Shown: in pieces, positions 63-27,020 of the stretch | How positions within the stretch are numbered: the stretch's first letter is position 1 | Layout of the letters: every line of letters starts with the position of its first letter | Virus record (IMG/VR): IMGVR_UViG_3300031594_000012 | Location: 1 to 27,020 of that record | Reading direction: 5' to 3' (one strand) | DNA: 27,020 bases | From: a virus | Notes under the pieces: model-generated | Told to the model about the DNA's origin: nothing | What the model saw: the letters and a program-made list of their open reading frames with translations, nothing else | Databases searched by the model: none | Translations under genes and position numbers: made by a program

Positions 63-91
63 ATTATATCATATATCAAAGCAAAAGTCAA
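63..91 (-). promoter_or_regulatory. Leftward sigma70 promoter near the window edge
   Basis: On the minus strand, TTGACT (86-91) is followed after exactly 17 bases by TATAAT (63-68), preceded by TGA, giving an extended -10 (TGNTATAAT). That is 5/6 plus 6/6 matches to consensus. The first ten bases, TTGACTTTTG, are identical to those of the other minus-strand promoter at 23712-23740. It points out of the left edge, so a leftward transcription unit should begin just outside the window. No start codon is visible in the remaining ~55 bases. Confidence 0.7.
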
Positions 92-3779: not shown

Positions 3780-3983
3780 ATGAGCAGATGTAAAGCGTGT
3801 GACGTTATACTGGGCGAGTACGAGTTAAAGCGTATCGACAAACTAACAGGCATTCATGTTGACCTGTGCAATGTATGCTATAGCCATAGCAATGACGCTA
3901 TGGTAGATGACAGGAGTGCAGAGTTTAATCATCTTTATCAAGGTCTCAGTGAGAAAGAACTTGACACCCTTGTGGAACAATAG
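3780..3983 (+). CDS. Small zinc-ribbon protein, 67 aa
   Basis: From ATG 3780 the 67-residue product contains CKAC (residues 4-7) and CNVC (residues 31-34) around a charged segment (GEYELKRIDKLTGIHVDL), forming a probable zinc ribbon, followed by a helical acidic tail (LSEKELDTLVEQ). Small proteins of this CxxC-27-CxxC kind are common in marine podoviruses and recall DksA/TraR-type zinc fingers, though the DksA coiled coil is missing. A role in modulating host RNA polymerase would fit but is inference. An in-frame ATG at 3744 overlaps the previous gene and lacks a good site. Its last codons contain a perfect promoter. Confidence 0.7.
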   Translation: MSRCKACDVILGEYELKRIDKLTGIHVDLCNVCYSHSNDAMVDDRSAEFNHLYQGLSEKELDTLVEQ

Positions 3984-3989
3984 TATAAT
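3961..3989 (+). promoter_or_regulatory. Perfect-consensus sigma70 promoter for the replication module
   Basis: TTGACA (3961-3966), a spacer of exactly 17 bases and TATAAT (3984-3989) match the sigma70 consensus at 12 of 12 positions. It overlaps the end of the zinc-ribbon gene and lies 120 bases upstream of the ssDNA-binding gene. Transcription should start near 3996. It indicates direct use of host RNA polymerase for the replication genes, and a step separate from the early run. Confidence 0.85.
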
Positions 3990-4110: not shown

Positions 4111-4476
4111 ATGGCAGTAGTAGAAGGCACAATAGCGTTTGAGAACCTAGACACCCACGAGATGTATCAGGGTCAATCCACAGGCAAGTACTCAGTTGTC
4201 ATCAGCTTAGATGACACCACAGCAGACCAATTAGCAGGTCTTGGCATCAAGATGCGAGAGTACGAAGGCGTTAAGCAGCGCAAGTTCAGCAGCAAGTACG
4301 ACATTGGAGTCGTAGATAAGGAAGGTCAGCCCTTTATGGGTCGCATAGGTCGAGGCTCTAAGGTTCGTCTCTTGTGGCAGGAAGGCCCTCCACACCCTGT
4401 CCACGGTACAGGTACGTACCTCAACAAGATTAAGGTCTTGGAAGTGGCAGAGCAGGAAGCAGGTGAGGACTTCTGA
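4111..4476 (+). CDS. Single-stranded DNA-binding protein (T7 gp2.5-like role)
   Basis: The 121-residue protein has a beta-rich body (GTIAFENL, GKYSVVISL, KFSSKYDIGVV, GSKVRLLWQE, NKIKVLEV) consistent with an OB-fold and many aromatic/basic residues, and a short acidic tail ending GEDF. The acidic tail with terminal Phe is the hallmark of T7 gp2.5-type SSBs, where it contacts polymerase and helicase. It is the first gene after the strong promoter, preceded by the leader AGAGGCAATAC (4098-4108), and overlaps the primase-helicase by one base. It is much shorter than T7 gp2.5 (232 aa), as in related marine podoviruses. Assignment rests on fold pattern, tail and position. Confidence 0.75.
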   Translation: MAVVEGTIAFENLDTHEMYQGQSTGKYSVVISLDDTTADQLAGLGIKMREYEGVKQRKFSSKYDIGVVDKEGQPFMGRIGRGSKVRLLWQEGPPHPVHGTGTYLNKIKVLEVAEQEAGEDF

Positions 4477-13935: not shown

Positions 13936-15971
13936 TAAAGAACCGCCTCTTCTTCTTCTTCAGGTAAAAAAGAAGCTCTAAGGTCATTACGCATTTTAGC
14001 TTGTTCTTCTGAGCTTAAACCATCTAAAACGTCACTAATTATTAAATGTAGTGCATTTTCTTTAAACGCTTCAGACTTAAAAGTTGCTTTGTCAAAAGCT
14101 AACAACTTGTTTACAGCTTTAGGATTAGTTGCCATCCTAGAAAGAAAAACAGGAGTCATTAGAACAGCAGCAGCGGCTCCTACGCCAACTACAGGCCCTC
14201 CCGAAGCAGTTCCTGCTATAGCTGCACCCGCAGTCGCAAACTCTTTACCTCTTAAAAACAGAGTACCAAAGTTACCTTCAGGTCTTTTACTTGCCTCTTG
14301 AAACAAATTAAACAGTTGTTTTACAGGTTTGTAGTCTTCACCTAAAATAACACTTAATCTTTTATTCCCTGCGGGAGTAGAAAACTGAGTGGCTAGTTGA
14401 TCATAAGCTTTAATGTTAAAATCAGCCCCACCGGACAAAGGCATAAGGTTCTTTAAAAAAGATTGTCTAATTGCTTGTTTTGCTTCTTTAGCAGTAGCAT
14501 AAGGTATTTCAGAAGGTAGCCCTTTTATTTTAGATAGCTGCAAATATGCCTCATCAATACTACTCATCATTGTAGCTATTTTACTTACATTGGTCTGGGT
14601 AGTTAACAAGTTACCTAGTGCGTCATAGTTACCTACGTCTGCGTTTTTAATTACGTTTTTATTAATAACAGGAAATAAACTTGCATTCCCCTCTTTATAA
14701 GTTTGTTTTAGAAGACGATAAGCCTCCGCAGCTTTAGGGTCTGCTTGTTTTAACGTATCAATAAGGGATTTTTTTAAAACATCTTGCATTTCTCGTAATT
14801 GTCTATCTGCAACAGTGTTATAACTGCCAGATGCTTTATCTCCAAACTTTGTTAATTGCTGAGTGATAAGCTTGTCAATCTTTAAAAGATTAGTAGCAGA
14901 CATATTACCTAATTCAAAAGCACCTGAAAGCTGTCCAGAAATAAACCGTCTAGCATCTTTATCTAAGAGTGCCGTACTTTTTGTTACAAGTTCGCCGTCT
15001 ACTTGACCAAAAGACTGTGCTGTTCTTTTCTTTACAAAATCGTTTAATTGCTTACTTATGCCTTTTGTGTTTACTACTTTGTTAGACACAGTAGACATGA
15101 TTTCATCTAAACCATCACCATACACTTGGCTCATAGCTGTCTTACCTGCCGTAATAACGTCAAAAAGACCTGACCCTAACTCAGCAGGAGAAGCTCCGGT
15201 TCGTATATCAACACTGCCAAAAATATCGTTTATTGCAGACTGAGCAGCAGCGTTTACTTTAAACAAGTTTTCCGTATGTTCTTTACCTGACACTAAACCT
15301 GCTTCACCAATCTTTTCTCCAAATACTTCTAAAGCACTTGCGTTTCCTGTTTGATACCTTGATAGACTAGCTCCACTTTTTTCAAGAATCTTTTGTGTTT
15401 GTTTTAAAGACTCAATAGAACCCGCTTCGGCAGCTTTTTTGCTTGACGTTACTATTTCTTTTGCTATTTCTTCAGGACTGAAACCTAGTGCTTTACGTGC
15501 AGAAACCCATGAGGCTTTAATAGGCCGACCTAGGCCCATAGTAACAATATCAAAACCTACAGACATTAAGGAGTCTTCAATAGCTTTGTTAAAGTCTAAT
15601 TCTTCGTTAGTCATATCGTCAGAAAGTAAAGAGCCTCCAAAAGTTCCGAACGCTCCTCCAACTATGCCTGCACCCGCTGCAATATAAGGATTACCAGTTC
15701 TTGCACCTATTTTAGCACCTGCTACCGCCATTGACATACCTAAAGGTATATCCATGTTTTCTTCAAGGAAACCACCTACACTCTCATACCAAGGGCTGTT
15801 TTCGTCAGACACAGGCACAGGCACAGGTGTCAGTTCTTTCTGTTGAAAGTCAGCTATAGTTGCTAAACCGTTTTTAATAGCAATGTCTTGTATTAATGAA
15901 GGGTCTGTGCCTACAGGAACATTTGGGATTTTTCTACCGTTAGGTAGAACTTGTGTATATGTTTGGCTCAT
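13935..15971 (-). CDS. Internal virion / ejection protein candidate, 678 aa
   Basis: The 678-residue protein opens with VLPNGRKIPNVPVGTDPSLIQD...NGLATIADFQQ (about 8-44), a pattern I associate with N-termini of podoviral internal proteins. Then come a Gly/Ala-rich hydrophobic stretch (about 80-120: AVAGAKIGARTGNPYIAAGAGIVGG), a long helical Lys/Gln/Leu-rich middle, a second glycine-rich hydrophobic patch (AGAAIAGTASGGPVVGVGAAAAVL, about 590-615) and an acidic end (EEEEEAVL). Amphipathic helices with glycine-rich membrane-active patches suit proteins ejected to form a channel through the host envelope. AAAGGA precedes the ATG by seven bases. No catalytic motif is seen. The gene is AT-rich. Confidence 0.65.
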   Translation of the reverse strand: MSQTYTQVLPNGRKIPNVPVGTDPSLIQDIAIKNGLATIADFQQKELTPVPVPVSDENSPWYESVGGFLEENMDIPLGMSMAVAGAKIGARTGNPYIAAGAGIVGGAFGTFGGSLLSDDMTNEELDFNKAIEDSLMSVGFDIVTMGLGRPIKASWVSARKALGFSPEEIAKEIVTSSKKAAEAGSIESLKQTQKILEKSGASLSRYQTGNASALEVFGEKIGEAGLVSGKEHTENLFKVNAAAQSAINDIFGSVDIRTGASPAELGSGLFDVITAGKTAMSQVYGDGLDEIMSTVSNKVVNTKGISKQLNDFVKKRTAQSFGQVDGELVTKSTALLDKDARRFISGQLSGAFELGNMSATNLLKIDKLITQQLTKFGDKASGSYNTVADRQLREMQDVLKKSLIDTLKQADPKAAEAYRLLKQTYKEGNASLFPVINKNVIKNADVGNYDALGNLLTTQTNVSKIATMMSSIDEAYLQLSKIKGLPSEIPYATAKEAKQAIRQSFLKNLMPLSGGADFNIKAYDQLATQFSTPAGNKRLSVILGEDYKPVKQLFNLFQEASKRPEGNFGTLFLRGKEFATAGAAIAGTASGGPVVGVGAAAAVLMTPVFLSRMATNPKAVNKLLAFDKATFKSEAFKENALHLIISDVLDGLSSEEQAKMRNDLRASFLPEEEEEAVL

Positions 15972-15974
15972 TTT

Positions 15975-16964
15975 TTAATCCTTTGATTGTGTCAACTGTT
16001 CCCAAGTTTTTTCTTCTGTTTCTTTAGAGCCGTCAAACATACCTTTAACTAAAGTGTTATACTCTTCTTGAGTTTCTGCCGCTGTGTACATTAACGCATT
16101 ATCAGCTTTGGCTTGTAGTCTATCAATCATAGTCCTAAGAATTGCTGCGTTAGCAGGATTACCTCTTCTGACGTTAGCTCCAATATCCGTTAGTGATTTA
16201 CGCTCTCCTTCACTAATTAAACCACCAAAAATAGGTTTCAAAGATTCTAGTATTGACACCATCATCTTACGTTCAAGAGTTGCTTTATCACCGCCTGTTA
16301 GACCAAAGAATTCTTGTATGCCATAGGAAGCAAGATTGATTGGGCCACCTGTTTTAATAGTTTTTAGAAGCTCTAAGGAAGACTCTAGGTTTGCAATATT
16401 GTTACTCATTTCAGGCAATAAACCCACAGCTTCTACTTTAGCTTCTCCAAACTTCCCTGCAATTGTTGTAACACTCTTTTCTTTTCGTTTTCTCTCTACT
16501 TCTTGAGAAGCAGTCATAGAAAAATCACCGCCAGTTAGTTCTCCTTCTATTGACTGATATTGTATTTCCATTTTACCTGTGTTTGTGTTTAAAGAAGGCA
16601 CAGCAATATAGGGGTTTCCCTCTTTATCAACACCAGTAAAAGTACTGCCTTTTGTAAATTTTGTAGTATCTTTTAAACTTGCAGCTAATTTTAAAGCACC
16701 TGCTCTGTCACCAGTAGCCATCATAAGTTTAATAAGCTTCTCAGCGTCAGCGGGATTGCTAGGATCAAGAGAACCCATAGCCATCTGTAGCTGCTCTGCC
16801 ATAGGTACTGAACCACCTGCACTACGCCTCATGCTTTCCATGCCACCCTGCATCATATTTGTAGCGTTAGCACCCATAGCTAACTGCTGCTGCTGAACAC
16901 TGAGGTTTGGGTTTACGGGTTGGTTAGACACCCCTGTTAACATACCTGCTATATCTAATGCCAT
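15975..16964 (-). CDS. Internal virion protein candidate, 329 aa
   Basis: 329 residues: a Gln/Met-rich helical start (VQQQQLAMGANATNMMQGGMESM), a middle with beta character (GSTFTGVDKEGNPYIAVPSLN) and a helical C-terminal domain in which ERKMMVSILESLKPIFGGLISEGERKSLTDIGANVRRGNPANAAILRTM (about 230-280) resembles a recurrent module of marine phage internal/structural proteins (LERxxLxxLxP-x-LG-I-S-xxE, R-G-x-P). AGGAG lies eight bases before the start. It sits between two larger candidates of the same class with only a few bases between genes. Function by analogy only. Confidence 0.6.
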   Translation of the reverse strand: MALDIAGMLTGVSNQPVNPNLSVQQQQLAMGANATNMMQGGMESMRRSAGGSVPMAEQLQMAMGSLDPSNPADAEKLIKLMMATGDRAGALKLAASLKDTTKFTKGSTFTGVDKEGNPYIAVPSLNTNTGKMEIQYQSIEGELTGGDFSMTASQEVERKRKEKSVTTIAGKFGEAKVEAVGLLPEMSNNIANLESSLELLKTIKTGGPINLASYGIQEFFGLTGGDKATLERKMMVSILESLKPIFGGLISEGERKSLTDIGANVRRGNPANAAILRTMIDRLQAKADNALMYTAAETQEEYNTLVKGMFDGSKETEEKTWEQLTQSKD

Positions 16965-16975
16965 TGTTATATCTC

Positions 16976-19027
16976 CTAATTAGTCCAATATGAGCTTAAA
17001 TCTATACCATCAGCGTTTGTGGGTATAACAGGACTTTGTGGATTAATGCTATCATAAAAGTTAGAACCGCCTAACCAACTGTCCATACCAGTGCTAGGCG
17101 CAGAGAATATAGGAGAAGAAGAAGAACTGCCACCAAACTTGTTACTCAACCAATCAAGACCTTGGTTAACAAGACCACCCTCATTAGTCAACATACCGCC
17201 ATCAGGATTTAAAAACCTGTTTATTAACTGCTCTTGCATAGTGGGTGCTTGTCCAAAGGCACTTGACATTAGACCCTGCATCTGCTGCTGCTGTAACAAG
17301 TTAGCCATGTTAGCACCACTCATGTAACTTTCAACACCTTGTCCACCTGCAATTGCTTGTAGTTCCGCACCACGCTGTTGACCACGTTGAGCTAACTCAG
17401 CGGAAGACAGACCTGAACCAAACATATTAAGAGCCTGTTGCTGTGGTTGATAACCTGCGGCCATCATTGCCTGCATGTTCTGTAGGTCTTGTCCTTGTAG
17501 CTGACCTTGTAACATTGAAGCTTGATTGCCAAGACCAAACATTCCTTGACCTAGATTAAAGTTACCTTGTTGTAGCTGTTGTTGGACACCCGCAGCACTT
17601 TGGTCAGCCCCTTGGAGAGCCATTAGATTCTGTAGCTGCTGTTGATTCATTTGGTTACTTGCTTGTGTACCTGTCATACCTAAGTTAGCAAGGGTAGTAC
17701 CACGACTTATGCCCTCTGTCTCTAAGCCTGAACCAACTTGAGCCAAGTCAGCAGTCATACCTGTCAGAGACTGTGCATTCTGCATAGCCTGTTGTCCTTC
17801 AGCCATAGCTTGCTGACGAGCCATCAAGGAAGCTGTGTTACCTGCTTCAGCCTGTGCTTTAGCCATTGCTAGTTGCTCTGGAGTGCCACCATAAGCGTCT
17901 GTAGAGATGCCTAAACGACCTTGACCTAACAAGCGTTCCTCTAGTGCAAGGTTCTGACGTTGCTCTTCAGGACGTTGTGTGGCTCTTATAGACTCATAGA
18001 TGTCACCTTGGCGTTGTTCAGGAGACATCATTAGTCCTTGTCCTGCCTGCTGTGCTAGGTTTCCGTACTGTGAACGTAGACTCTGAAGATCAGAGGGCTG
18101 TCCTGCTGCACCAAGCTGCCCTAAAGCCCCGCTTAGTCCTGCCTGTGTAATGCCTTCCATACCTGTAGGCTGTCCGTACTCTGCCTGTTGTTGTCCAAAC
18201 AAGCCGCCCATTGCTCCACGTTGTCCTGCAATAGAAGGATCAAACTGACCTGCTCTACCAAGGAAGTTCTGAGCTTGACCATAGGCATTAGAGCCTATCT
18301 GTCCCGCTACTTGGTTGTACTGTCCACCTAAGTTACCCGCTAGTTGACCTGCGCCACCCATCAGTTGACCTTGTAGAGCCTGCTGTTGAGGACTAAGGTT
18401 AACATTAAGTCCACCATTAGCACCTGCTTGTACGTTAGCAAGACTAGAGGTAACACCAAAAGGTTTAAACTGAGTAGCATCAGAAGCTCGTTTACCTAGC
18501 TGCTCAGATAAGTTAAAGCCTGCTGTACCTGCGCCCAAGGCTCCTTCAATACCCTCCTGTCCTGCGTAGTAACCTGCGGCTCCTTGTAAGGCCCCTGTAA
18601 GGTCTCCTGAGAGCAAGCCGCCCAAAGCTAGGCCACCGTATGCGGCAGTGTTGCTAGGGCCAGTAGAGGGTGCTGTAGGTAGTGTTAAGGGGTTGTTGCT
18701 AGAGTTAGGTGGAGGCACTGAGCCTCCTTGACGATAAAAACTACCGTCATTTGGTTGGTTCCATCTCCCCGAAGAGTCAAAACCAACTCCAACTCTGTTG
18801 TTTGTTAGGAACACAGGGTCAGGCACTCTTCCGTTTGACGCATACCCAAAATCGGATGGCTTAAGGGCATAATCATCTGCAAAAACGGCTCTGGAAAAAG
18901 GAGCAACTCTCTGGTTCTCGAATTCAGCGGCTGTTGCTCTGCGCGGCATCGGGGGCTTTGCCAGTCTCAGATTACTTGGTAATTCATTAGGGTTGTACAT
19001 GTTGCCATTCGGCCCTCTAACCATCAT
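16976..19027 (-). CDS. Gln/Gly/Ala-rich virion protein, 683 aa
   Basis: The 683-residue protein starts with a structured-looking segment (about 1-100, GPNGNMYNPNELPSNL; SDFGYASNGRVPDPVFLTNN), then has a long low-complexity region dominated by Gln, Gly, Ala, Leu and Met (for example QQALQGQLMGGAGQLAGNLGGQ, QQQMQGLMSSAFGQ) that looks like continuous amphipathic helix, and ends in a Ser/Gly-rich tail. This composition is typical of flexible ejection/internal proteins and some tail needle or scaffold proteins. It overlaps the 77-aa gene by one base (TGATG); a second ATG follows immediately. No lysozyme or protease motif is recognised. The base composition is clearly richer in G+C than the next three genes leftward. 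Confidence 0.65.
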   Translation of the reverse strand: MMVRGPNGNMYNPNELPSNLRLAKPPMPRRATAAEFENQRVAPFSRAVFADDYALKPSDFGYASNGRVPDPVFLTNNRVGVGFDSSGRWNQPNDGSFYRQGGSVPPPNSSNNPLTLPTAPSTGPSNTAAYGGLALGGLLSGDLTGALQGAAGYYAGQEGIEGALGAGTAGFNLSEQLGKRASDATQFKPFGVTSSLANVQAGANGGLNVNLSPQQQALQGQLMGGAGQLAGNLGGQYNQVAGQIGSNAYGQAQNFLGRAGQFDPSIAGQRGAMGGLFGQQQAEYGQPTGMEGITQAGLSGALGQLGAAGQPSDLQSLRSQYGNLAQQAGQGLMMSPEQRQGDIYESIRATQRPEEQRQNLALEERLLGQGRLGISTDAYGGTPEQLAMAKAQAEAGNTASLMARQQAMAEGQQAMQNAQSLTGMTADLAQVGSGLETEGISRGTTLANLGMTGTQASNQMNQQQLQNLMALQGADQSAAGVQQQLQQGNFNLGQGMFGLGNQASMLQGQLQGQDLQNMQAMMAAGYQPQQQALNMFGSGLSSAELAQRGQQRGAELQAIAGGQGVESYMSGANMANLLQQQQMQGLMSSAFGQAPTMQEQLINRFLNPDGGMLTNEGGLVNQGLDWLSNKFGGSSSSSPIFSAPSTGMDSWLGGSNFYDSINPQSPVIPTNADGIDLSSYWTN

Positions 19028-19260
19028 CAGTATGCTCCTCCAGTTATTGTATCAGCCGTTAGAGTACCTGATATGTTTACAGTGACGGCTGTAGTAGTCC
19101 CTGTTAAGGCAGCGTTAGCAGCATTAGCTTTAGTAGCACTGGCTGTCGCTATGTTATTAAACTCTGTGTCAATCTCTGTTCCCTTGACAATCTTAGCTGC
19201 GTTACCGGAAGCAAGAGCATCTTTAGTGGCAAAGTTAGTAGTCTTTGTGTAGTTGGACAT
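19027..19260 (-). CDS. Short fibre-associated protein, 77 aa
   Basis: 77 residues: YTKTTNFATKDALASGNAAKIVKGTEIDTEFNNIATASATKAN, then a Thr/Ala-rich beta stretch ending TLTADTITGGAY. The TKTTNFxxKDALxSGxxxKIVxGTEIDTEFNNIA block is a very common element in marine podovirus tail fibre proteins and small accessory proteins, often at the N-terminus of larger fibres. Here it stands alone between the nozzle gene and the Gln-rich protein. It may be a fibre-adaptor or a detached fibre N-terminus. GGAG lies nine bases upstream of ATG. Confidence 0.75.
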   Translation of the reverse strand: MSNYTKTTNFATKDALASGNAAKIVKGTEIDTEFNNIATASATKANAANAALTGTTTAVTVNISGTLTADTITGGAY

Positions 19261-20795
19261 TAGATGAGTCTCCCTAGTATAGCATGTATGTCAATTTTTT
19301 GAATAGAAAAAGAAGTGTCGTTGATCTCAGTTTCAAGGCCAATAGTTACTACCTCACCGTTGCCGCTAGTGTTAACTTTTGGTGTGTTGATGATGGCAGA
19401 AGCTGTGTACTCCGCAGTTGTGTTGTACTCAGACACTCCATACTCTCCTGCATTGGTTGATCCCGTTAAAGTAAACACCTGCTTAGTAAAGTTAGTGGAG
19501 TAGTCGTAACCCCAGTTTAAAGTAGATTTAGTGTTCTGACCACCAATGATAGTAATGTTAAACTTCTTTAGGAACTTTAAGTTAGAAGCGTTGCCAAAGT
19601 CCATAGGGTTACTGAAGTAACGCATCTGGTAGTTAGCTGTGCCGTCTAGGTATCCTGCGTACTTGACAACACCTGAAGAAAGACCAAAGTATATGTCACC
19701 TGCTTCAGTTGTAGTGAGAGCTAGTGGATGTAGACCTGACCAAGTAGTAACTCTTTGTGATCCATCCTGTAAAGGTGAACGCATGTCAAAGCAGTACGTT
19801 GTGTCACTGTCAGGCAGAGTCAACAAGTAGAATGCTTCATCAGCACTGTACACAGACTTAATAGGATTAGTTTGCAAAGGCACAAGAGAGGTAAGATCAC
19901 TACGGACGTTCTTGCTTATGTCACGCATAGGCATAGACTTCTCTTGGATAGTCCTTCCAAAGCTACGAACACCTGAGTCAGATAGGAACAAGATGTCAGT
20001 ACCTGTGTGCTGCACTGAGTCTCTTGCTATACAACCTACACCCTCTACTGTATCCGCTAATGTCATGTTAGCAGGGGAAGAAGCACCTGAGTACACAAGG
20101 ATAGACTTCTTGCCAAAGATAACTAAGAAGTTGTTGTGTGCAGCTAAAGCCACTACTTCGTCATTACCCGTAGGCCATACAGTTGTTAGGTTAAGATTGC
20201 CTGTAGCACCGCCTGTCCACTTTGTGCCGTCAAGAGTGTCACTCCAGTACACAGTGTGCTTGTTGCCTACAATGTCCGTAACCCACAGCTTACCAAAGGC
20301 AGCCAGTACTTCGTTGCCCTGTGGTACTGTGCCTGAGTATCCTGTGTGAGCAGTGATAACTTCCATTACAAAGGAACCTGAATCGTCTGTAGCAATTAAC
20401 GGGACATGCCCAGACTGAAACATATACAGGTGGTTGTTGAAGGTTGCACACTTCCAATTGTTAGCTGACGGTGAATAGCCACTAGGTGTAATATCAACTA
20501 GTGTGCCTGTGCCTTTGAATATCTTGTTGTTGCCCGCAGAGATAACAACCTTGCTACCACTAGTGTCCACAAACTCAAAGACTGTTTCTATGCCACGACT
20601 ACTACCTAGCACAGCAGCACCGTTAGAAGACACAGCTTCCCATCCTTTACGCGCACCTATGCGGCCTAGCTTGTCTATAACACAGTTGTCAGCAACAGAG
20701 GCAAATGAGGGATCACCACCTATGGGAGACTCCTGCGTGTTAAGCCCCATAAATCCCGGCGCTGCTACTGTAATGTTCTGTAGTTGTTGAGCCAT
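19260..20795 (-). CDS. Tail nozzle / tail tubular protein B-like
   Basis: The 511-residue beta-rich protein starts with APGFMGLNTQESPIGGDPSFASVADNCVIDKLGRIGARKGWE, a segment found at the start of podoviral nozzle-type proteins (T7 gp12-like, and reminiscent of P22 gp10). Repeated strand motifs with W and Y (HTVYWSDTLDGTKWTGG, DIYFGLSSGVVKYAGY) suggest a propeller-like body. The neighbour upstream is the tubular A-like gene, as in T7 (gp11-gp12). In the virion it would form the distal conduit that fibres attach to. It ends ILGRLI with no extra domain. The start ATG at 20795 has only a weak binding site and probably relies on coupling to the previous stop at 20796. Confidence 0.8.
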   Translation of the reverse strand: MAQQLQNITVAAPGFMGLNTQESPIGGDPSFASVADNCVIDKLGRIGARKGWEAVSSNGAAVLGSSRGIETVFEFVDTSGSKVVISAGNNKIFKGTGTLVDITPSGYSPSANNWKCATFNNHLYMFQSGHVPLIATDDSGSFVMEVITAHTGYSGTVPQGNEVLAAFGKLWVTDIVGNKHTVYWSDTLDGTKWTGGATGNLNLTTVWPTGNDEVVALAAHNNFLVIFGKKSILVYSGASSPANMTLADTVEGVGCIARDSVQHTGTDILFLSDSGVRSFGRTIQEKSMPMRDISKNVRSDLTSLVPLQTNPIKSVYSADEAFYLLTLPDSDTTYCFDMRSPLQDGSQRVTTWSGLHPLALTTTEAGDIYFGLSSGVVKYAGYLDGTANYQMRYFSNPMDFGNASNLKFLKKFNITIIGGQNTKSTLNWGYDYSTNFTKQVFTLTGSTNAGEYGVSEYNTTAEYTASAIINTPKVNTSGNGEVVTIGLETEINDTSFSIQKIDIHAILGRLI

Positions 20796-21440
20796 TTAAG
20801 AATACCAGATAGTTTCTTCGGGATGTTGGGCAGCGTCAAAGGCTATAGCATCAGCTAAAGTCCTATCAGCAAGAGCAAACAGTTCAGCAGCACTTGTGCC
20901 ACCTGTCTCACCACGCTCTCTAGCACCCAATGCAGTGGCTAGTTGAACGACAGGAGAGGAAGGTATAAGCATGTTGTTTGTGTCTACAGTGAAGTCATCA
21001 GTACGTAGGACAGCGTTAAAGCGTACCTGATACACACCGTCAGGCTTTGGATACAAGTCAACACCGTTGTCTCCGTTAGCGTCCACACCGTTAAAGCTGT
21101 AGAACTGTGGAGTACCTGTAGGTGCATCGTTGATAAGGAAAGCGTTGTTCATCCAGTGTGATGTGCGGTACTGCAAAAAGAAGTTAGAGGTGTCGTTAGC
21201 AACATCCAGTATCTTCATACGATTGCCAGAACCAACCAGTGTGTAGTTAAAAGCTGTAGCGTCTGTGCTGACAGTTAGCGTGTCACGTAAGGCTGTCCAA
21301 TCGTAGGCATCCTCAACAGTTCTTTTAGAGTCGTTAACAAACTCACCTATAAGTTTAGAGTAGCTGTTCTGAGAGACTGACGTAACTTCATCTTCCCTCA
21401 GTCTGCGTAGTACGCTGTTAACTAGCTGTAAGTATGTCAT
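20796..21440 (-). CDS. Tail tubular protein A-like adaptor
   Basis: The 214-residue protein starts MTYLQLVNSVLRRLREDEVTSVSQNSYSKLIGEFVNDSKRTVEDAYDW, the helical start of gp11-type adaptors, then has a beta domain (LTVSTDATAFNYTLVG...RMKILDVANDTSNFFLQY) and a C-terminal helix (GGTSAAELFALADRTLADAIAFDAA). It is close in size to T7 gp11 (196 aa). It links portal and nozzle in the short tail. It overlaps the preceding gene by TAATG and lies next to the nozzle gene, exactly as expected. Confidence is high because both sequence pattern and gene order agree. Confidence 0.85.
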   Translation of the reverse strand: MTYLQLVNSVLRRLREDEVTSVSQNSYSKLIGEFVNDSKRTVEDAYDWTALRDTLTVSTDATAFNYTLVGSGNRMKILDVANDTSNFFLQYRTSHWMNNAFLINDAPTGTPQFYSFNGVDANGDNGVDLYPKPDGVYQVRFNAVLRTDDFTVDTNNMLIPSSPVVQLATALGARERGETGGTSAAELFALADRTLADAIAFDAAQHPEETIWYS

Positions 21441-23326
21441 TATGCAAACCTTTGTGATGTTGTAAATGCAGACTCAAATGGAGATGTTAAAAAATCTTCT
21501 ATGTCTACTTCTTGTTCTGGTTGGTTAAGTGGGCCAAACTCTGTTAGCTCTATCTTGTTCTTAAACTTGAATAGTTCGTTTTCAAATATCTTACCTGTTG
21601 TAGCTGTAGGGGCAGGTGCGCCTGAAAGAAGCATACCCATACCCATGCCTAAACTTGGCAGGTTGAAGTTAGGTAAGTCAATGCTAGGTAAGTCAATGCT
21701 AGGTAAGTCTATGTCAGGAGTACTAAAGGGTGACTGTATATCGTATAAGCCTTCATCTAGCTTAGTCAGTTCTCTTCTAGCTGCTGTATCTGCTTCCGAC
21801 AGTACTTCTCTAATGGCTGTGTCTGCTGCTGATAAAGCATCGCCCGCAGGTCTGAAGACAGCATCATCTAAGTCTTTAGCTATTTCTCTTACAGGTTGTA
21901 TAACAGCATCATCTATTGCACTACCACCTGCTCTAACTAAGTCTTCTGCTGTTCTGCCTGCTTGTCTAATGGCGCTAGTGTCTATATCTGGGACAGACTC
22001 TTTAACAAACTTAGCAACTGCTGTAGCTGCTGTACCTATGGGTCTGACAATATCTCTAACTACATCCTCAATTCCTGCAAAAGAAATATCTGATTCAGGC
22101 ATATTAAAGAGATTTTTTAAACCACCTTCTCTAGCATAATCAACAAAGCCATAAGCAAGGGCATCGTCAAACTCTTCACCTGCCGCTACTTTCTCAACAG
22201 TCTTTTGAAGACCTGCTTCAAATGCGGCAGCAGGGATACCAACTTTAGCCAAAGCTTCTGAGGTAACACCTGCTTTGTTTAATCCTCCTTTAATAAGGTC
22301 TCCACCATATATAGAGACAAGAGCAGACTTAGGATCACCTGTGGCCGCTGCTGTTAACAAGCCTACTGATTGGTTATATGAAAGAGTTTTGCCTGCAAGG
22401 GTAAGCCCTTTGCCCGCTAGAGCAGCGTTTTCAGCTATTGGGCCTGCCATTACTCCTCCCGATTGAGCAGCTACCTCACCTATCTTCTGAGCTTCAGCGG
22501 CAGTAGCGGGTGCTTGCAACATGCCCAAACCTTTTGCAGCGGACACGCCCGCACTTAGGTAATCTGTACCGTGGAGTGTCTGACCGTTAGCAGCTTTAGC
22601 GGCAGTCAAGACAGCCGTGCCAAAAGGAACAAAGTTAGCAGCTATGTTAACTACGGGGTTGTTTATTATGTCTTGAAAAAAAGAGGTGCTTGTATCTATA
22701 TAAACTGTTGAATACGTACCTACTGGGCCTTGGTCTTGCCAGATACCGTCACGAACTCTTCCGTGTAAAGCATCATTGTTTCTATCGTTTCCTCCTGTTA
22801 AATGATAAGTAACACCATCTCTTTCTTGGGTTAGAGGTATGTTGTTATCTTTAACATAAGTGTTTAACGCATCTTTTGAGGCGTTTGTTCCTAAAGCCCT
22901 AGGGCCAGAAAGCCCAGACCTTAAATAGTCGCTTGGGTCAAACTGAGTAAGCCCGTATTTATTTGTTGTGTCTTGGTATTGGGTGTCTAACCCTCCAAGA
23001 AAACTTGCAAACCCGCCAAGAGCTTCTTCGGTTGTGTCATACACAGCACCGGAATCAAAAGTTATATCAGACTGATTTGGAAGCTCATGTGAACTAACAC
23101 TGGAGCCTACGCCTTTCTGCCCTGCTTCCCAGATTCCTTCAGCTTTTTGTTTATCAGCTAGAGCTTGGGAGTTTGCAGCAGCTTGCTTTTGTGTTATAGG
23201 TTGTGCGGCTACAGGTGCAGCAGTAGGTTTGACTAAAGCTACAGGCGTAGGAGCAAAAGGATCAGGCTCGTCAAAGGAGCTACCTAAAGAAGCAAACTGT
23301 TCAGGATCAAAACTAAAGTTAAACAT
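21440..23326 (-). CDS. Large virion-type protein with IDLPS repeats, 628 aa
   Basis: The 628-residue protein has a Pro/Ala-rich N-terminus (FAPTPVALVKPTAAPVAAQP), a possibly structured segment around 100-220 (YGLTQFDPSDYLRSG; GVTYHLTGGNDRNNDALHGRVRDGIWQDQG), an Ala/Gly-rich helical middle (about 220-510) and a C-terminal linker with the tandem repeats IDLPSIDLPSIDLPNFNLPS at about 537-556, ending in an acidic tail. The alternation of disordered, helical and repeat regions resembles structural or ejection proteins. There is no enzymatic motif. It lies between the 3TM holin-like gene and the tail tubular A-like gene, overlapping both by a few bases. I do not recognise a family. Confidence 0.6.
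   Translation of the reverse strand: MFNFSFDPEQFASLGSSFDEPDPFAPTPVALVKPTAAPVAAQPITQKQAAANSQALADKQKAEGIWEAGQKGVGSSVSSHELPNQSDITFDSGAVYDTTEEALGGFASFLGGLDTQYQDTTNKYGLTQFDPSDYLRSGLSGPRALGTNASKDALNTYVKDNNIPLTQERDGVTYHLTGGNDRNNDALHGRVRDGIWQDQGPVGTYSTVYIDTSTSFFQDIINNPVVNIAANFVPFGTAVLTAAKAANGQTLHGTDYLSAGVSAAKGLGMLQAPATAAEAQKIGEVAAQSGGVMAGPIAENAALAGKGLTLAGKTLSYNQSVGLLTAAATGDPKSALVSIYGGDLIKGGLNKAGVTSEALAKVGIPAAAFEAGLQKTVEKVAAGEEFDDALAYGFVDYAREGGLKNLFNMPESDISFAGIEDVVRDIVRPIGTAATAVAKFVKESVPDIDTSAIRQAGRTAEDLVRAGGSAIDDAVIQPVREIAKDLDDAVFRPAGDALSAADTAIREVLSEADTAARRELTKLDEGLYDIQSPFSTPDIDLPSIDLPSIDLPNFNLPSLGMGMGMLLSGAPAPTATTGKIFENELFKFKNKIELTEFGPLNQPEQEVDIEDFLTSPFESAFTTSQRFA
21671..21715 (-). repeat. 15-bp tandem repeat encoding IDLPS
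   Basis: Three head-to-tail units of 15 bases (AGGTAAGTCAATGCT twice, exactly, then a copy with three changes) lie within the 628-aa gene and encode (S)IDLP on the minus strand. Near-identical units point to recent slippage or duplication, and the number of units may vary between relatives. Confidence 0.8.
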
Positions 23327-23709
23327 TACTTATCCCTCGCCACTGCTTTTGTTTTCTCTACTGTTCGCATAGCACCTAGTCCTAACATACCCATCAAGAC
23401 AGTTGTAAGCAAGGAGCTATCAACAGGAGGTACTGTAAACCAGATGCCTAAGATTGGTGAGAGGATGGTAGAGTAGAATAAAGACAGCCCACATATCCAA
23501 CCAATAGCAGGTCTCCATCCACTGACAAACAAAGACTTATGTGCTGCTTCTACCTTGTTGACTTCTAGTTGACCCTTGGCTAGTTCTTGAGCATGCTTCT
23601 CTGCCATAGTCGCTAGTTCAAAGGCAATGGCATTCTTTTGATCTTTATCTTCAATAAACTTATCTAAAAGTCCTGTCACTGGGCCAATCAAACTAGTTAA
23701 AATACTCAT
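23326..23709 (-). CDS. GTA-type three-helix holin-like protein
   Basis: 127 residues: an amphipathic N-terminal helix (SILTSLIGPVTGLLDKFI), a charged helix (EHKA..ELAKGQLEVNKVEAA), then KSLFVSGWRPAIGWICGLSLFY with membrane helices at about 66-91 and 98-114, and a basic tail. The SxWRPxxGWxCGLxLFY pattern is the signature I associate with the 3TM holin family first described for gene transfer agents. Such proteins open the inner membrane for lysis. A strong promoter overlaps the start (the -10 ends two bases before ATG), and no clear ribosome binding site is seen, so full-length translation must come from read-through mRNA or from another start. Confidence 0.75.
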   Translation of the reverse strand: MSILTSLIGPVTGLLDKFIEDKDQKNAIAFELATMAEKHAQELAKGQLEVNKVEAAHKSLFVSGWRPAIGWICGLSLFYSTILSPILGIWFTVPPVDSSLLTTVLMGMLGLGAMRTVEKTKAVARDK

Positions 23710-23711
23710 TT

Positions 23712-23740
23712 ATTATACACCATTTCTAGTCAAAAGTCAA
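23712..23740 (-). promoter_or_regulatory. Near-consensus leftward promoter abutting a start codon
   Basis: On the minus strand, TTGACT (23735-23740) and TATAAT (23712-23717) have a 17-base spacer: 5/6 and 6/6 matches. The first ten bases TTGACTTTTG equal those of the promoter at 63-91. The -10 ends two bases before ATG 23709, so the expected start of transcription falls inside the gene. It probably serves the tail and ejection genes downstream. Confidence 0.7.
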
Positions 23741-23802
23741 GGTAAATCTTTGTAACGTGCAGTGAAGTGTTGAGTGGTGTCACTTTATGGCGCATATAAA
23801 TG

Positions 23803-23964
23803 CTACCGTTTAGTCAGCTTCTGCACCGTGTCTGACTCGTAGATGCGTAGACCTAGCCACACTATAGTAAACAAGGAAGCTACTGGGGGCAACCATGCTG
23901 CTAGTGTCGCTAGGGCTGTCGATGCTGCTGCTACATCCATCATGTCTTTGCTTGCTTCGTCCAT
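23803..23964 (-). CDS. Small holin-like membrane protein, 53 aa
   Basis: The 53-residue product starts MDEASKDMMDVAAASTALATLAAWLPPVASLFTIVWLGLRIYESDTVQKLTKR. It has an Ala-rich helix (about 10-24), a PP kink and a second hydrophobic helix (about 28-42), ending in a charged tail. The LPPVAxLxTxVWLxLRIYExxTVQ pattern is one I link with small class II-type phage holins. The ATG lies just after the stop of the 148-aa gene with GGGAAG upstream. It sits beside the 3TM holin-like gene, so two membrane proteins with probable lysis roles are adjacent. A 93-base gap carrying the promoter follows. Confidence 0.75.
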   Translation of the reverse strand: MDEASKDMMDVAAASTALATLAAWLPPVASLFTIVWLGLRIYESDTVQKLTKR

Positions 23965-23965
23965 G

Positions 23966-24412
23966 TTATCTTCCCAGTATTGTTAGTATTAAATATACTG
24001 CTGATCCAAGGACTGGTATAGCCACAAGCGCAGTACAGATTATAGTAAAGAACTCTATTACGTGTTGCTTGTGTTTAGCACTAGCGTATTGCTTGTCTTT
24101 CTCTTCCTGCGCCCTAGCTCTCTTACAATCTGATTGGAAATGGAGCCAATCGTCATACATGTTAGCTCGTCCTGCGTAGATCATAATCTCACGTAGCTCA
24201 GTCTCCTGCTCCTTGATGGACTCAAGAGCCATGAATGCTTCCATGTCGCTCTTGTTTCCACCGTTCTTAGCCTTCTTTGCTATCGTGCTTTTGGAGTCAA
24301 AGTAGCTTGTAACCTGAGTAGCCACACTGTGCAGTTCTTGACCGTTGCTAATAGCGTTCTTTATTACACCAAATGCTGCGTTAGCAATTGCAATCTCTGC
24401 AAGCATGGTCAT
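23966..24412 (-). CDS. Conserved phage protein with C-terminal membrane anchor, 148 aa
   Basis: 148 residues: LAEIAIANAAFGVIKNAISNGQELHSVATQVTSYFDSKSTIAKKAKNGGNKSDMEAFMALESIKEQETELREIMIYAGRANMYDDWLHFQSDCKRAR, then a Lys/Gln-rich coil and one hydrophobic helix (about 119-145). The EIAxANAAFxVIK...GNKSDxEAFMALExIKEQExELxExMIYAGR pattern is recurrent in marine T7- and T4-like phages with no proven function. A cytoplasmic coiled body with a C-terminal anchor and the location beside holin-like genes would fit a lysis or spanin-type role, but no typical spanin signal is present. AGGAG lies before ATG. Confidence 0.75.
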   Translation of the reverse strand: MTMLAEIAIANAAFGVIKNAISNGQELHSVATQVTSYFDSKSTIAKKAKNGGNKSDMEAFMALESIKEQETELREIMIYAGRANMYDDWLHFQSDCKRARAQEEKDKQYASAKHKQHVIEFFTIICTALVAIPVLGSAVYLILTILGR

Positions 24413-24427
24413 CTCCTTTACTTGTTA

Positions 24428-24673
24428 TTAGCTTGCGGTATAGCCGTTGCCTGAGACTATGGCGGCATTTGTGGCTGTCATGTCTTCACTGCCCCAATCG
24501 TCCTTGGCTACCATAAGCTCTAGGTGCTGAGTGTTTCTATCTACACAGCCTTGGCGTTCTTCGGCATCATCGTCAGCCATGCAGTTACCTGCGATTACGT
24601 CTGTAATCAAAGCTACGCTGTCGCCCATTGCTGAGTAGTCTTGTGCCAGTTCTTCTGTAGTGCGAGGTTCCAT
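24428..24673 (-). CDS. Small conserved protein after the fibre, 81 aa
   Basis: The 81-residue acidic, mostly helical protein: EPRTTEELAQDYSAMGDSVALITDVIAG, then QGCVDRNTQHLELMVAKDDWGSEDMTATNAAIVSG. The C-terminal pattern RNxxHLELMVAKDxWxxEDMTAxNAAIxxG is very common in short proteins encoded right after tail fibre genes in marine podoviruses. Two cysteines (GNCMADD, QGCVDRN) flank a loop. The family has no assigned function; association with fibre assembly is inferred from position. AAGGA precedes ATG 24673, six bases after the fibre stop. Confidence 0.75.
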   Translation of the reverse strand: MEPRTTEELAQDYSAMGDSVALITDVIAGNCMADDDAEERQGCVDRNTQHLELMVAKDDWGSEDMTATNAAIVSGNGYTAS

Positions 24674-24678
24674 TTCGT

Positions 24679-26925
24679 TTATCCTTCTAAGGTTGTGATA
24701 CGAGCGAGTGCTGCGTCTAGTTGTGTTGAGAGTTCTTGTATTGCGTTAATCATGTACCATGTTAAATTATCCGCATTAACTGAAAGCACTCCTGTATTTT
24801 GTTCAGTAACACAGGAAGGAAGCACTGCTTGAATTTCTTGAGCAATTAAACCTAACTGAACGCCTTGAATATCAATAACATCTGTTGAAGCAAGTTCAGT
24901 AACTTCATCTTCAGTGCGGTACTCAAAGTTACGGACTTGCAGTTGGTTTATTTTTTCAAGGCCAACTGTGTTGTCAACAATGTTTTTCTTTAGCCTTCGG
25001 TCAGAAGTTTGCGACCACGCTGATGCGTTATTACCTTGAAAAGTACCACCACCTCCTGCATTTATATAACCTGTGGCCTGCCCTTTACTGACTGAATTAT
25101 AGCCAATCACTATTTCGTTGTTATTACCAACTGCGCTTCCCCTCGCACTATTTCCAAGCATAATAGCATTTGCGCCAGTAGTTGTAGTCCCTCCTGCTGA
25201 CCTACCAACAAAAACCGCACTGCCTCCAGTAGTAAGCGCAGCACCTGCTCCCCAACCTAATAGGGTATTGTCTGATCCGGTAGTTATTGCGGTTCCTGCG
25301 ATGTTCCCAAATGCTGAGTTTTCGTGGCCGGTGGTGTTTGCTTCTAATGCTCGTCTTCCCACTGCTGTGTTGTTAGATGCTGTGGTGTTAGCTTCTAAGG
25401 CTTGATCACCTATAGCAACATTACTAGAGCCAGTTGTGTTTGCCCCTAAAGTCGCATAACCCAACGCTGTATTAGCATCTCCTGTTGTATTAGCGTCTAG
25501 CGAAACACCGCCCAGTGCTGTGTTCTGTGTACCTGTGGTGTTTGCTCCTAAAGCACTTGTGCCAACCGCTGTGTTGTTAGCCGCTGTTGTATTTGCGCCT
25601 AAAGCACTTGTACCTACTGCTACGTTATCTCCACCAGTAGTGTTTGCGTCCATAGCGTCTCCACCGATTGCTACGTTCTGCTGTCCTGTGGTGGTTGCTC
25701 CTAAAGTGTTATAGCCTATCCCTACGTTGTACGCCGCAGTAGTGTTTGATTGCAGTGCGTAGGCTCCAAGACCAACATTCTGTGCGCCTGTGGTGTTTGC
25801 GGTTAAAGCATTGTAACCAAGAGCAGTGTTATTAGCCGCTGTGGTGTTTGCGTCTAAAGCTAACGACCCCACTGCTACGTTTGAAGCGCCTGTGGTATTT
25901 GCGGCTAAAGCAGAATAACCCACTGCTGTATTACTTATGGCGGTGGTATTTGCGCTTAAAGCTGATGCTCCAACAGCTACGTTGTAGTATCCCGTGGTAT
26001 TTGCATCAGCAGCAAGACCACCAATGAAGGTATTGTGTGTGCCTGTGGTTACTGCGTTACCTGCAAAGTAACCCACTGCTGTATTATAAGTATCTGTAGC
26101 AGATGTAAAGTTTTGACCAACTAAAGTGCCTCTACCAAGAGCAGTTGATTTATTGCCTTTCGTGTCTGAGCCTAAAGAACCAAATCCTAGCACTACATTA
26201 TCTGTTCCAGTATTTAGCGCATCTCCCGCAAGACCACCGATGAGGGTGTTTTGAGTGCCTGTGGTGACTGACTCACCTGCTCCGTGTCCCACAGCTACGT
26301 TATACATATCTGTTGCACTAGCAGGATTCTGAACCTGTAAAGCGGCTCTACCTATTGCTACGCTTTTGCTTCCCAATACGTTAGTAATTAAGGTGCTGAA
26401 CCCTAAAGCAGTGTTTCCACTGGCTGTAGTAACTGCTTTCCCTGAATCGTACCCTATAAATGTATTCTCATCACCCGTAGTAATCGCAGTACCTGCTTCA
26501 TCACCTACGACAGTATTATAATTACCACCGCTTGCAATCGAGTTACCTGCGTTGACACCTGCGCGGAAGTTGCTTGTTCCTGCTGAAGCCGTGATTAAAT
26601 CTGCGCCATTTGCAAGCGTTACGTCTGCCGCAAAGTTTGCTGCACCGTCTACGTCTATGACATCTAGGTTCGATGTGCCGTCTACGTCTATATCTCCAGA
26701 GATGTCTAGGCTTGTAGCTGTTAGGACTCCTGTGACTCCCAGAGTACTCGCCATTGTCACAGCGCCCAGAGGATTAGTACCTAGCTCGACAATAGCACCT
26801 GAAGCATTCTCAGTATACAAACGCTTGTCCGTGACGTTAACCGCTAACTCGCCTTGGACAAGATCACTTGCAGAAGGTGCGCTACCGCCAGTACTGCTAT
26901 TCTTTGTTACTATTTTTGTTGCCAT
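24679..26925 (-). CDS. Tail fibre with repeat shaft and S74 self-cleaving chaperone
   Basis: 748 residues. N-terminal adaptor: KIVTKNSSTGGSAPSASDLVQGELAVNVTDKRLYTENASGAIVELG (5-50), typical of marine fibres. A short connecting domain follows (about 51-130). The shaft is built first from three 72-residue modules beginning at N137, N209 and N281, then from fourteen 17-residue units (304-541) of the form xALxANTTxxxNxAVGx, resembling the left-handed beta-roll of YadA-like heads. C-terminal S74 chaperone: SDRRLKKNI with the S641/K646 dyad, QLGLIAQEIQAVLP and a coiled tail. Such chaperones trimerise the fibre, then cut themselves off before the Ser. It would bind the host surface. No sign of a diversity-generating system is seen. 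Confidence 0.88.
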   Translation of the reverse strand: MATKIVTKNSSTGGSAPSASDLVQGELAVNVTDKRLYTENASGAIVELGTNPLGAVTMASTLGVTGVLTATSLDISGDIDVDGTSNLDVIDVDGAANFAADVTLANGADLITASAGTSNFRAGVNAGNSIASGGNYNTVVGDEAGTAITTGDENTFIGYDSGKAVTTASGNTALGFSTLITNVLGSKSVAIGRAALQVQNPASATDMYNVAVGHGAGESVTTGTQNTLIGGLAGDALNTGTDNVVLGFGSLGSDTKGNKSTALGRGTLVGQNFTSATDTYNTAVGYFAGNAVTTGTHNTFIGGLAADANTTGYYNVAVGASALSANTTAISNTAVGYSALAANTTGASNVAVGSLALDANTTAANNTALGYNALTANTTGAQNVGLGAYALQSNTTAAYNVGIGYNTLGATTTGQQNVAIGGDAMDANTTGGDNVAVGTSALGANTTAANNTAVGTSALGANTTGTQNTALGGVSLDANTTGDANTALGYATLGANTTGSSNVAIGDQALEANTTASNNTAVGRRALEANTTGHENSAFGNIAGTAITTGSDNTLLGWGAGAALTTGGSAVFVGRSAGGTTTTGANAIMLGNSARGSAVGNNNEIVIGYNSVSKGQATGYINAGGGGTFQGNNASAWSQTSDRRLKKNIVDNTVGLEKINQLQVRNFEYRTEDEVTELASTDVIDIQGVQLGLIAQEIQAVLPSCVTEQNTGVLSVNADNLTWYMINAIQELSTQLDAALARITTLEG
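25303..26016 (-). repeat. Fourteen 51-bp units encoding the fibre shaft
   Basis: The stretch encodes 14 consecutive 17-residue units, each with the core (A/S)NTT(G/A)xxNxAxG; one copy reads ATTTG. Units differ in the residues preceding the core and at positions 10-11, which would lie on the same exposed edge of a beta-roll. DNA identity between units is moderate, so the array is not recent slippage throughout. Confidence 0.85.
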
Positions 26926-26937
26926 TTTTATATACCT

Positions 26938-27020
26938 TTAGTAAGTGCCACCTAGTAGCGTACCTGAAGTCATGTTGTCTGCGTTTAAAGTAGAGTTAGA
27001 TTGTAAAGCTGAGTCTGCCT
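26938..27020 (-). CDS. C-terminus of a fibre-like protein (cut by window edge)
   Basis: Only the last 26 residues are visible: ADSALQSNSTLNADNMTSGTLLGGTY. The gene runs into the window from the right and ends 12 bases before the tail fibre start. Its end (TLNADNMTSGTLLGGTY) closely resembles the end of the 77-aa protein at 19027-19260 (TLTADTITGGAY), suggesting the same small fibre-associated class or a longer fibre ending alike. AAAGG in the gap serves the tail fibre gene. Confidence 0.65.
   Translation of the reverse strand, partial: ADSALQSNSTLNADNMTSGTLLGGTY

Follow-up and report, generated by a model that had tools for sequence, protein, structure and literature searches.

A sigma70-type promoter motif lies directly against the start codon of a holin-like gene in the window (the whole stretch of 27,020 nucleotides analysed here, from IMG/VR virus record IMGVR_UViG_3300031594_000012, an uncultured marine phage), and the same geometry was found in nearly all related loci with the same gene order. 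The best explanation, which we regard as probable, is that this promoter skips the holin and serves the packed block of late genes behind it, with the holin made by read-through. It would be a promoter of the host sigma70 type, placed in the last noncoding gap before the block.

The promoter site and its surroundings

A sequence-only reading of this DNA had placed a leftward -10 element ending at 23712, two bases from an ATG at 23709. Direct reading of the sequence confirmed this: on the minus strand, TTGACT (23740-23735) is followed by a 17-nt spacer, TATAAT (23717-23712), AA, and the ATG (23709-23707). The features of the window are:

63-91, minus strand: strong promoter TTGACTTTTGCTTTGATATATGATATAAT, which matches the group's promoter before the GRPKK-type gene
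3961-3989, plus strand: strong promoter TTGACACCCTTGTGGAACAATAGTATAAT, 121 nt before the ATG at 4111, with a normal leader
19260-20795, minus strand: probable tail/neck structural protein (weak-to-moderate PHROG matches, mostly to structural families)
20796-21440, minus strand: SU10-adaptor-like protein (PF24175, E 5e-9; phrog_10775 tail protein, E 9e-13), the first conserved structural gene of the block behind the holin
21440-23326, minus strand: gp21440, a variable-length protein whose ATG overlaps the holin stop codon (TAATG), with a Shine-Dalgarno-like site (dG -6.9)
23326-23709, minus strand: holin-like gene, 127 aa, GTA_holin_3TM, ATG at 23709 with a weak or no Shine-Dalgarno site
23703-23706, minus strand: region where a published rule predicts the RNA to start, covering positions 6-9 after the -10, with the modal position 7 at 23705
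23712-23717, minus strand: -10 element TATAAT, 17 nt from the -35 and 2 nt before the holin ATG
23735-23740, minus strand: -35 element TTGACT, read directly; TTGAC[AT] in 59 of 60 syntenic loci
23803-23964, minus strand: gp23803, 53 aa, one hydrophobic stretch, directly upstream of the holin; no match in the family search

The product of 23326-23709 is called a holin by homology only, and its membrane-lesion activity is putative. The ORF matches PF11351 GTA_holin_3TM (E 1e-16, 62 bits, against a curated cut-off of 24.8) and the phrog_3427 holin (E 4e-37). An in-frame TAA directly precedes the ATG at 23709, which is the earliest possible start of this frame. At this ATG the Shine-Dalgarno duplex energy was close to 0 for most representatives, with -2.8 for the window and -5.8 in one case; at gp21440 it was -6.9 in the window and ranged from -2.9 to -8.2 in the group. 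The holin/gp21440 junction and most gp21440/adaptor junctions overlap or touch.

The neighbouring genes have some features of their own. In the window and its relatives, gp21440 is highly variable (about 490-1446 aa, 27-96% identity) amid well conserved neighbours. The small gene gp23803 stands directly behind the tail-fibre region and is possibly a second small holin of the kind found in T7-like phages. The S74 tail-fibre gene contains internal 51-nt tandem repeat units (window 25306-26013).

The site at 23740-23712 has TTGACA/TATAAT-like hexamers within the 16-18 nt spacing of sigma70-type promoters. It matches 11 of 12 sigma70 consensus bases at a spacing of 17 and was the top of 15 promoter-like sites in 15000-27020. 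Such loose sites were not enriched as a class there (15 found, 16.4 expected from shuffles), whereas for the strict pattern TTGACW-N15..18-TATAAT, 0.02 occurrences were expected in the window and three were found: at 91-63 (minus), 3961-3989 (plus), and 23740-23712 (minus). A search for PF00940 (phage T7-type RNA polymerase) gave no matches in nine records and its control likewise matched nowhere; whatever that search gave, the motif is sigma70-like.

Searching ten related records with the strict pattern picked out a small set of strong promoters. For those before the MAVVEGTIAFEN-type (window ATG 4111), GRPKK-type, and MIDKELEQYY-type genes, the ORF begins about 35-193 nt after the -10, and the ORFs behind the non-holin strong promoters mostly have a Shine-Dalgarno site. 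Only the holin promoter has a gap of 1-3 nt among the strong promoters of these records. In a sister phage (L356), a very similar promoter precedes the adaptor gene by 38 nt, a placement consistent with a promoter that serves structural genes. Beside the leftward promoter at 91-63 we also observed a cluster of DnaA boxes on the plus strand (332-421), with TTATCCACA at 332, 362, and 413 and TTATACACA at 402, a possible host-DnaA-type replication origin in the phage.

Conservation of the geometry in relatives

We fetched IMG/VR relatives by holin or adaptor search and counted the loci without selecting for the motif. The pattern TTGAC[AT]-N17-TATAAT-N1..3-ATG was found in 59 of 60 loci with the window's gene order and in none of the 52 holin homologs that stand in a different gene context. 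The promoter is thus conserved with the downstream block and not with the holin alone, as an operon-internal promoter would be. The one exception, from a sister clade (L079), has extra sequence between gp23803 and the holin, and sister clades with similar gene order do without the holin-adjacent promoter, which counts against the holin-skipping explanation. The holins of the promoter-positive set are 50-100% identical to that of the window. A single phage lineage comprises all of the holin-type cases, including the 24 representatives chosen under 93% identity, and shared descent accounts for part of their constancy.

The gap between the -10 and the ATG was 2 nt in 40 loci, 3 nt in 10, and 1 nt in 9, while the distance from the gp23803 stop codon to the -35 took nine values, from -17 to +64. 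Where spare noncoding DNA precedes the -35 (62 nt in the window, 64 nt in L116 and L120), the -10 still lies 1-3 nt from the ATG. In about half of the loci the -35 is inside the end of gp23803, as in the subgroup with TTGACAAACAAGACTAA. In the other loci this element is noncoding, and its conservation therefore cannot be put down to coding constraint on gp23803. In none of the loci does the -10 overlap either annotated gene. The spacer and the upstream sequence differ between subgroups, but the two hexamers and their 17-nt distance do not. Per-position conservation was computed on motif-selected loci, so that hexamer invariance in that calculation is partly by construction; the unbiased count is the 59 of 60. 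Judged from these sequences, conservation in relatives excludes chance, and the promoter and its geometry appear to be real and selected. A reading in which the motif is not an active promoter would agree with the chance-level frequency of loose sites, but the excess of strict sites and the retention of hexamers and spacing, both across diverged representatives and in the 59 loci, leave it hardly any credibility.

The promoter is not tied to the window's holin family, since in L107 it is retained, with the first codons, before an ORF of another family, phrog_2524. In both L107 (641-1049) and L185, a phrog_2524 protein replaces the holin while the promoter and the first codons MSILTTLI are kept; by sequence this appears to be a lysis-gene swap with its junction in the first codons.

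In a search for isolated relatives, the adaptor had no match among 50,697 phage records, and the DNA polymerase was at best 52% identical to those of pelagiphages such as HTVC103P. A contig in a Sphingobacteriales MAG (L377, JAAXIF010000042.1) has the same phage gene order, with an adaptor of 63% identity, and is probably a binned phage fragment; no promoter was found at its holin.

The predicted transcript and competing readings

Bacterial start sites use positions 6, 7, 8, and 9 after the -10 in 3, 70, 23, and 4% of cases (PMC5730371), a rule measured with E. coli RNA polymerase, which may not be the polymerase of the phage host. The A of the holin ATG is at position 3 after the -10 (2-4 across the group). 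By this rule, RNA from the holin-adjacent promoter should start in holin codons 2-3 and lack the ATG. It would serve gp21440, the adaptor, and the later structural and ejection genes, while full-length holin would come only from read-through RNA that starts at more distant promoters and crosses the tail-fibre and gp23803 genes. The benefit would be strong structural expression without more holin.

The holin N-terminus indicates that a second transcript is needed. Codons 4, 8, and 10 encode an identical amino acid in all 24 representatives with varying synonymous codons, and the amino acids at codons 2, 3, and 7 are nearly as constant. An N-terminal ML-x-x-LI pattern is also common to holin homologs without the promoter. 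The conserved amino acids at codons 1-10 show that the N-terminus is translated and selected and that full-length holin is still needed, so some other RNA must carry the ATG. From the tail-fibre gene to the holin, the minus strand showed no intrinsic terminator-like site, which makes read-through the likely source. Recognition of the holin start codon on that RNA would not rely on a strong Shine-Dalgarno site. Synonymous variation was 0.28 in codons 2-8 against 0.44 elsewhere, and 2 of 113 contiguous windows were as low; this is suggestive of constraint at the DNA level, although A+T bias at gene starts predicts the same.

These results partly support the sequence-only reading, whose account of the transcript is the best supported: that it should begin inside the holin gene and could not give the full protein, that holin would come from read-through mRNA (the conservation of codons 1-10 requires another transcript), and that promoter-derived mRNA would express only the downstream tail and ejection genes (adaptor-like and other structural genes do lie there). 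The purpose it had offered, uncoupling lysis from structural expression, is plausible.

The same start site could also be used with no regulatory meaning, the promoter occupying the nearest noncoding gap before overlapping genes and the loss of holin being a side effect. The overlapping or touching junctions of the block and the -35 within the end of gp23803 in about half of the loci favor this, and it accounts for the general location of the promoter, since no later noncoding gap is available ahead of the packed genes. However, compactness is weakened as a reason by the spare DNA in the window, L116, and L120, where the 1-3 nt gap is kept all the same, and the unrelated family phrog_4258, described below, has the same geometry. 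We consider this reading rather unlikely. A leaderless holin mRNA starting at the ATG itself would account for the fixed closeness of the -10 and ATG and for the weak or absent Shine-Dalgarno site. Leaderless genes with a -10 directly before an ORF that lacks a Shine-Dalgarno site do exist in Deinococcus-Thermus, but there the -10 is about 6-7 bp away and closer placement leads to aberrant expression (PMC12340547). The gap is 1-3 nt in the 59 loci, and with the A of the ATG at position 3 after the -10 a leaderless start there is unlikely; the start codon should instead fall outside the RNA. We judge a leaderless holin mRNA to be improbable. An alternative -10 for such a start was rejected, as the hexamer about 6-7 nt before the ATG matches poorly (TAGTGT-like) with a spacer of only 12 nt.

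Two-product holin genes are known, for example lambda S, and this counts for a reading in which translation of the promoter RNA begins at an internal start and gives a holin with a shortened N-terminus, making a holin/antiholin pair. Candidate starts are a GTG at codon 11 (10 of 18 members) and an ATG at codon 35 (17 of 18), and an internal promoter reportedly gives a short VirF via a leaderless mRNA (PMC5101355). On the other side, no internal holin start ahead of the membrane segments was found to combine conservation with a strong Shine-Dalgarno site. Such a pair is therefore very improbable, although in some members a shortened holin might in principle begin at the codon 11 GTG, a point against the holin-skipping explanation.

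A second family with the same architecture and wider meaning

We scanned viral contigs for TTGACW-N17-TATAAT-N1..3-ATG. Among the matches listed, most were chance occurrences before very short ORFs, and one unrelated family, phrog_4258, was recurrent (loci L378-L420, L183, L198, L212, L217, L252, L257, L262, and L274). The phrog_4258 ORF (about 135 aa) is flanked on one side by a D10-like helicase region and on the other by SSB-, D12-, and D13-like genes. TTGACA-N17-TATAAT or TATACT stands 1-2 nt before its ATG or GTG in 43 of the 43 loci retrieved with one member, which share 46-100% identity and include many close relatives. A distant homolog in a T5-like Klebsiella phage has TATAAT 4 nt before the ATG. 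As at the holin, a consensus promoter abuts the start codon, a same-strand gene lies upstream, and the next gene overlaps or touches; a strong Shine-Dalgarno site (-6.6 to -9.1) precedes the SSB-like gene that follows. Unlike the holin, phrog_4258 is an unrelated protein in a T5-like replication region of marine phage contigs. Because pyrimidines are common among the start bases predicted for phrog_4258, and a moderate Shine-Dalgarno-like site is present in some of its members, the parallel, which is drawn from sequence, is one of architecture and gives no proof of the same function. We tentatively raise, while leaning somewhat against it, the idea that phages have repeatedly and independently evolved the placing of a consensus -10 directly against a start codon, as at the holin and at phrog_4258, so that the first ORF of a strong transcript stays untranslated and its dosage is separated from that of the later genes.

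Internal promoters in phage late operons raise downstream expression and leave the upstream gene out of the new transcript. The holin promoter would likewise omit the upstream gene and raise the later ones, but it differs in having its -10 set against the start codon, in the conservation of the 1-3 nt gap across the group, and in leaving out a holin. The mqsRA operon is reportedly similar in that promoters drive the second gene, mqsA, without the harmful first gene, mqsR, a transcriptional uncoupling; it is a bacterial toxin-antitoxin operon and is not related by descent (PMC6918082). The same arrangement before a holin was not found in the literature searched, the coverage of which was incomplete.

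The holin-adjacent promoter would usually be attributed to the holin by gene finders and promoter tools. If the holin-skipping explanation is true, a promoter abutting a start codon would be recognizable from sequence as one that does not express the gene immediately behind it, and the annotation of phage operons and of lysis control would change. It would also give a phage that uses host RNA polymerase a simple way to express its structural genes strongly without raising holin.
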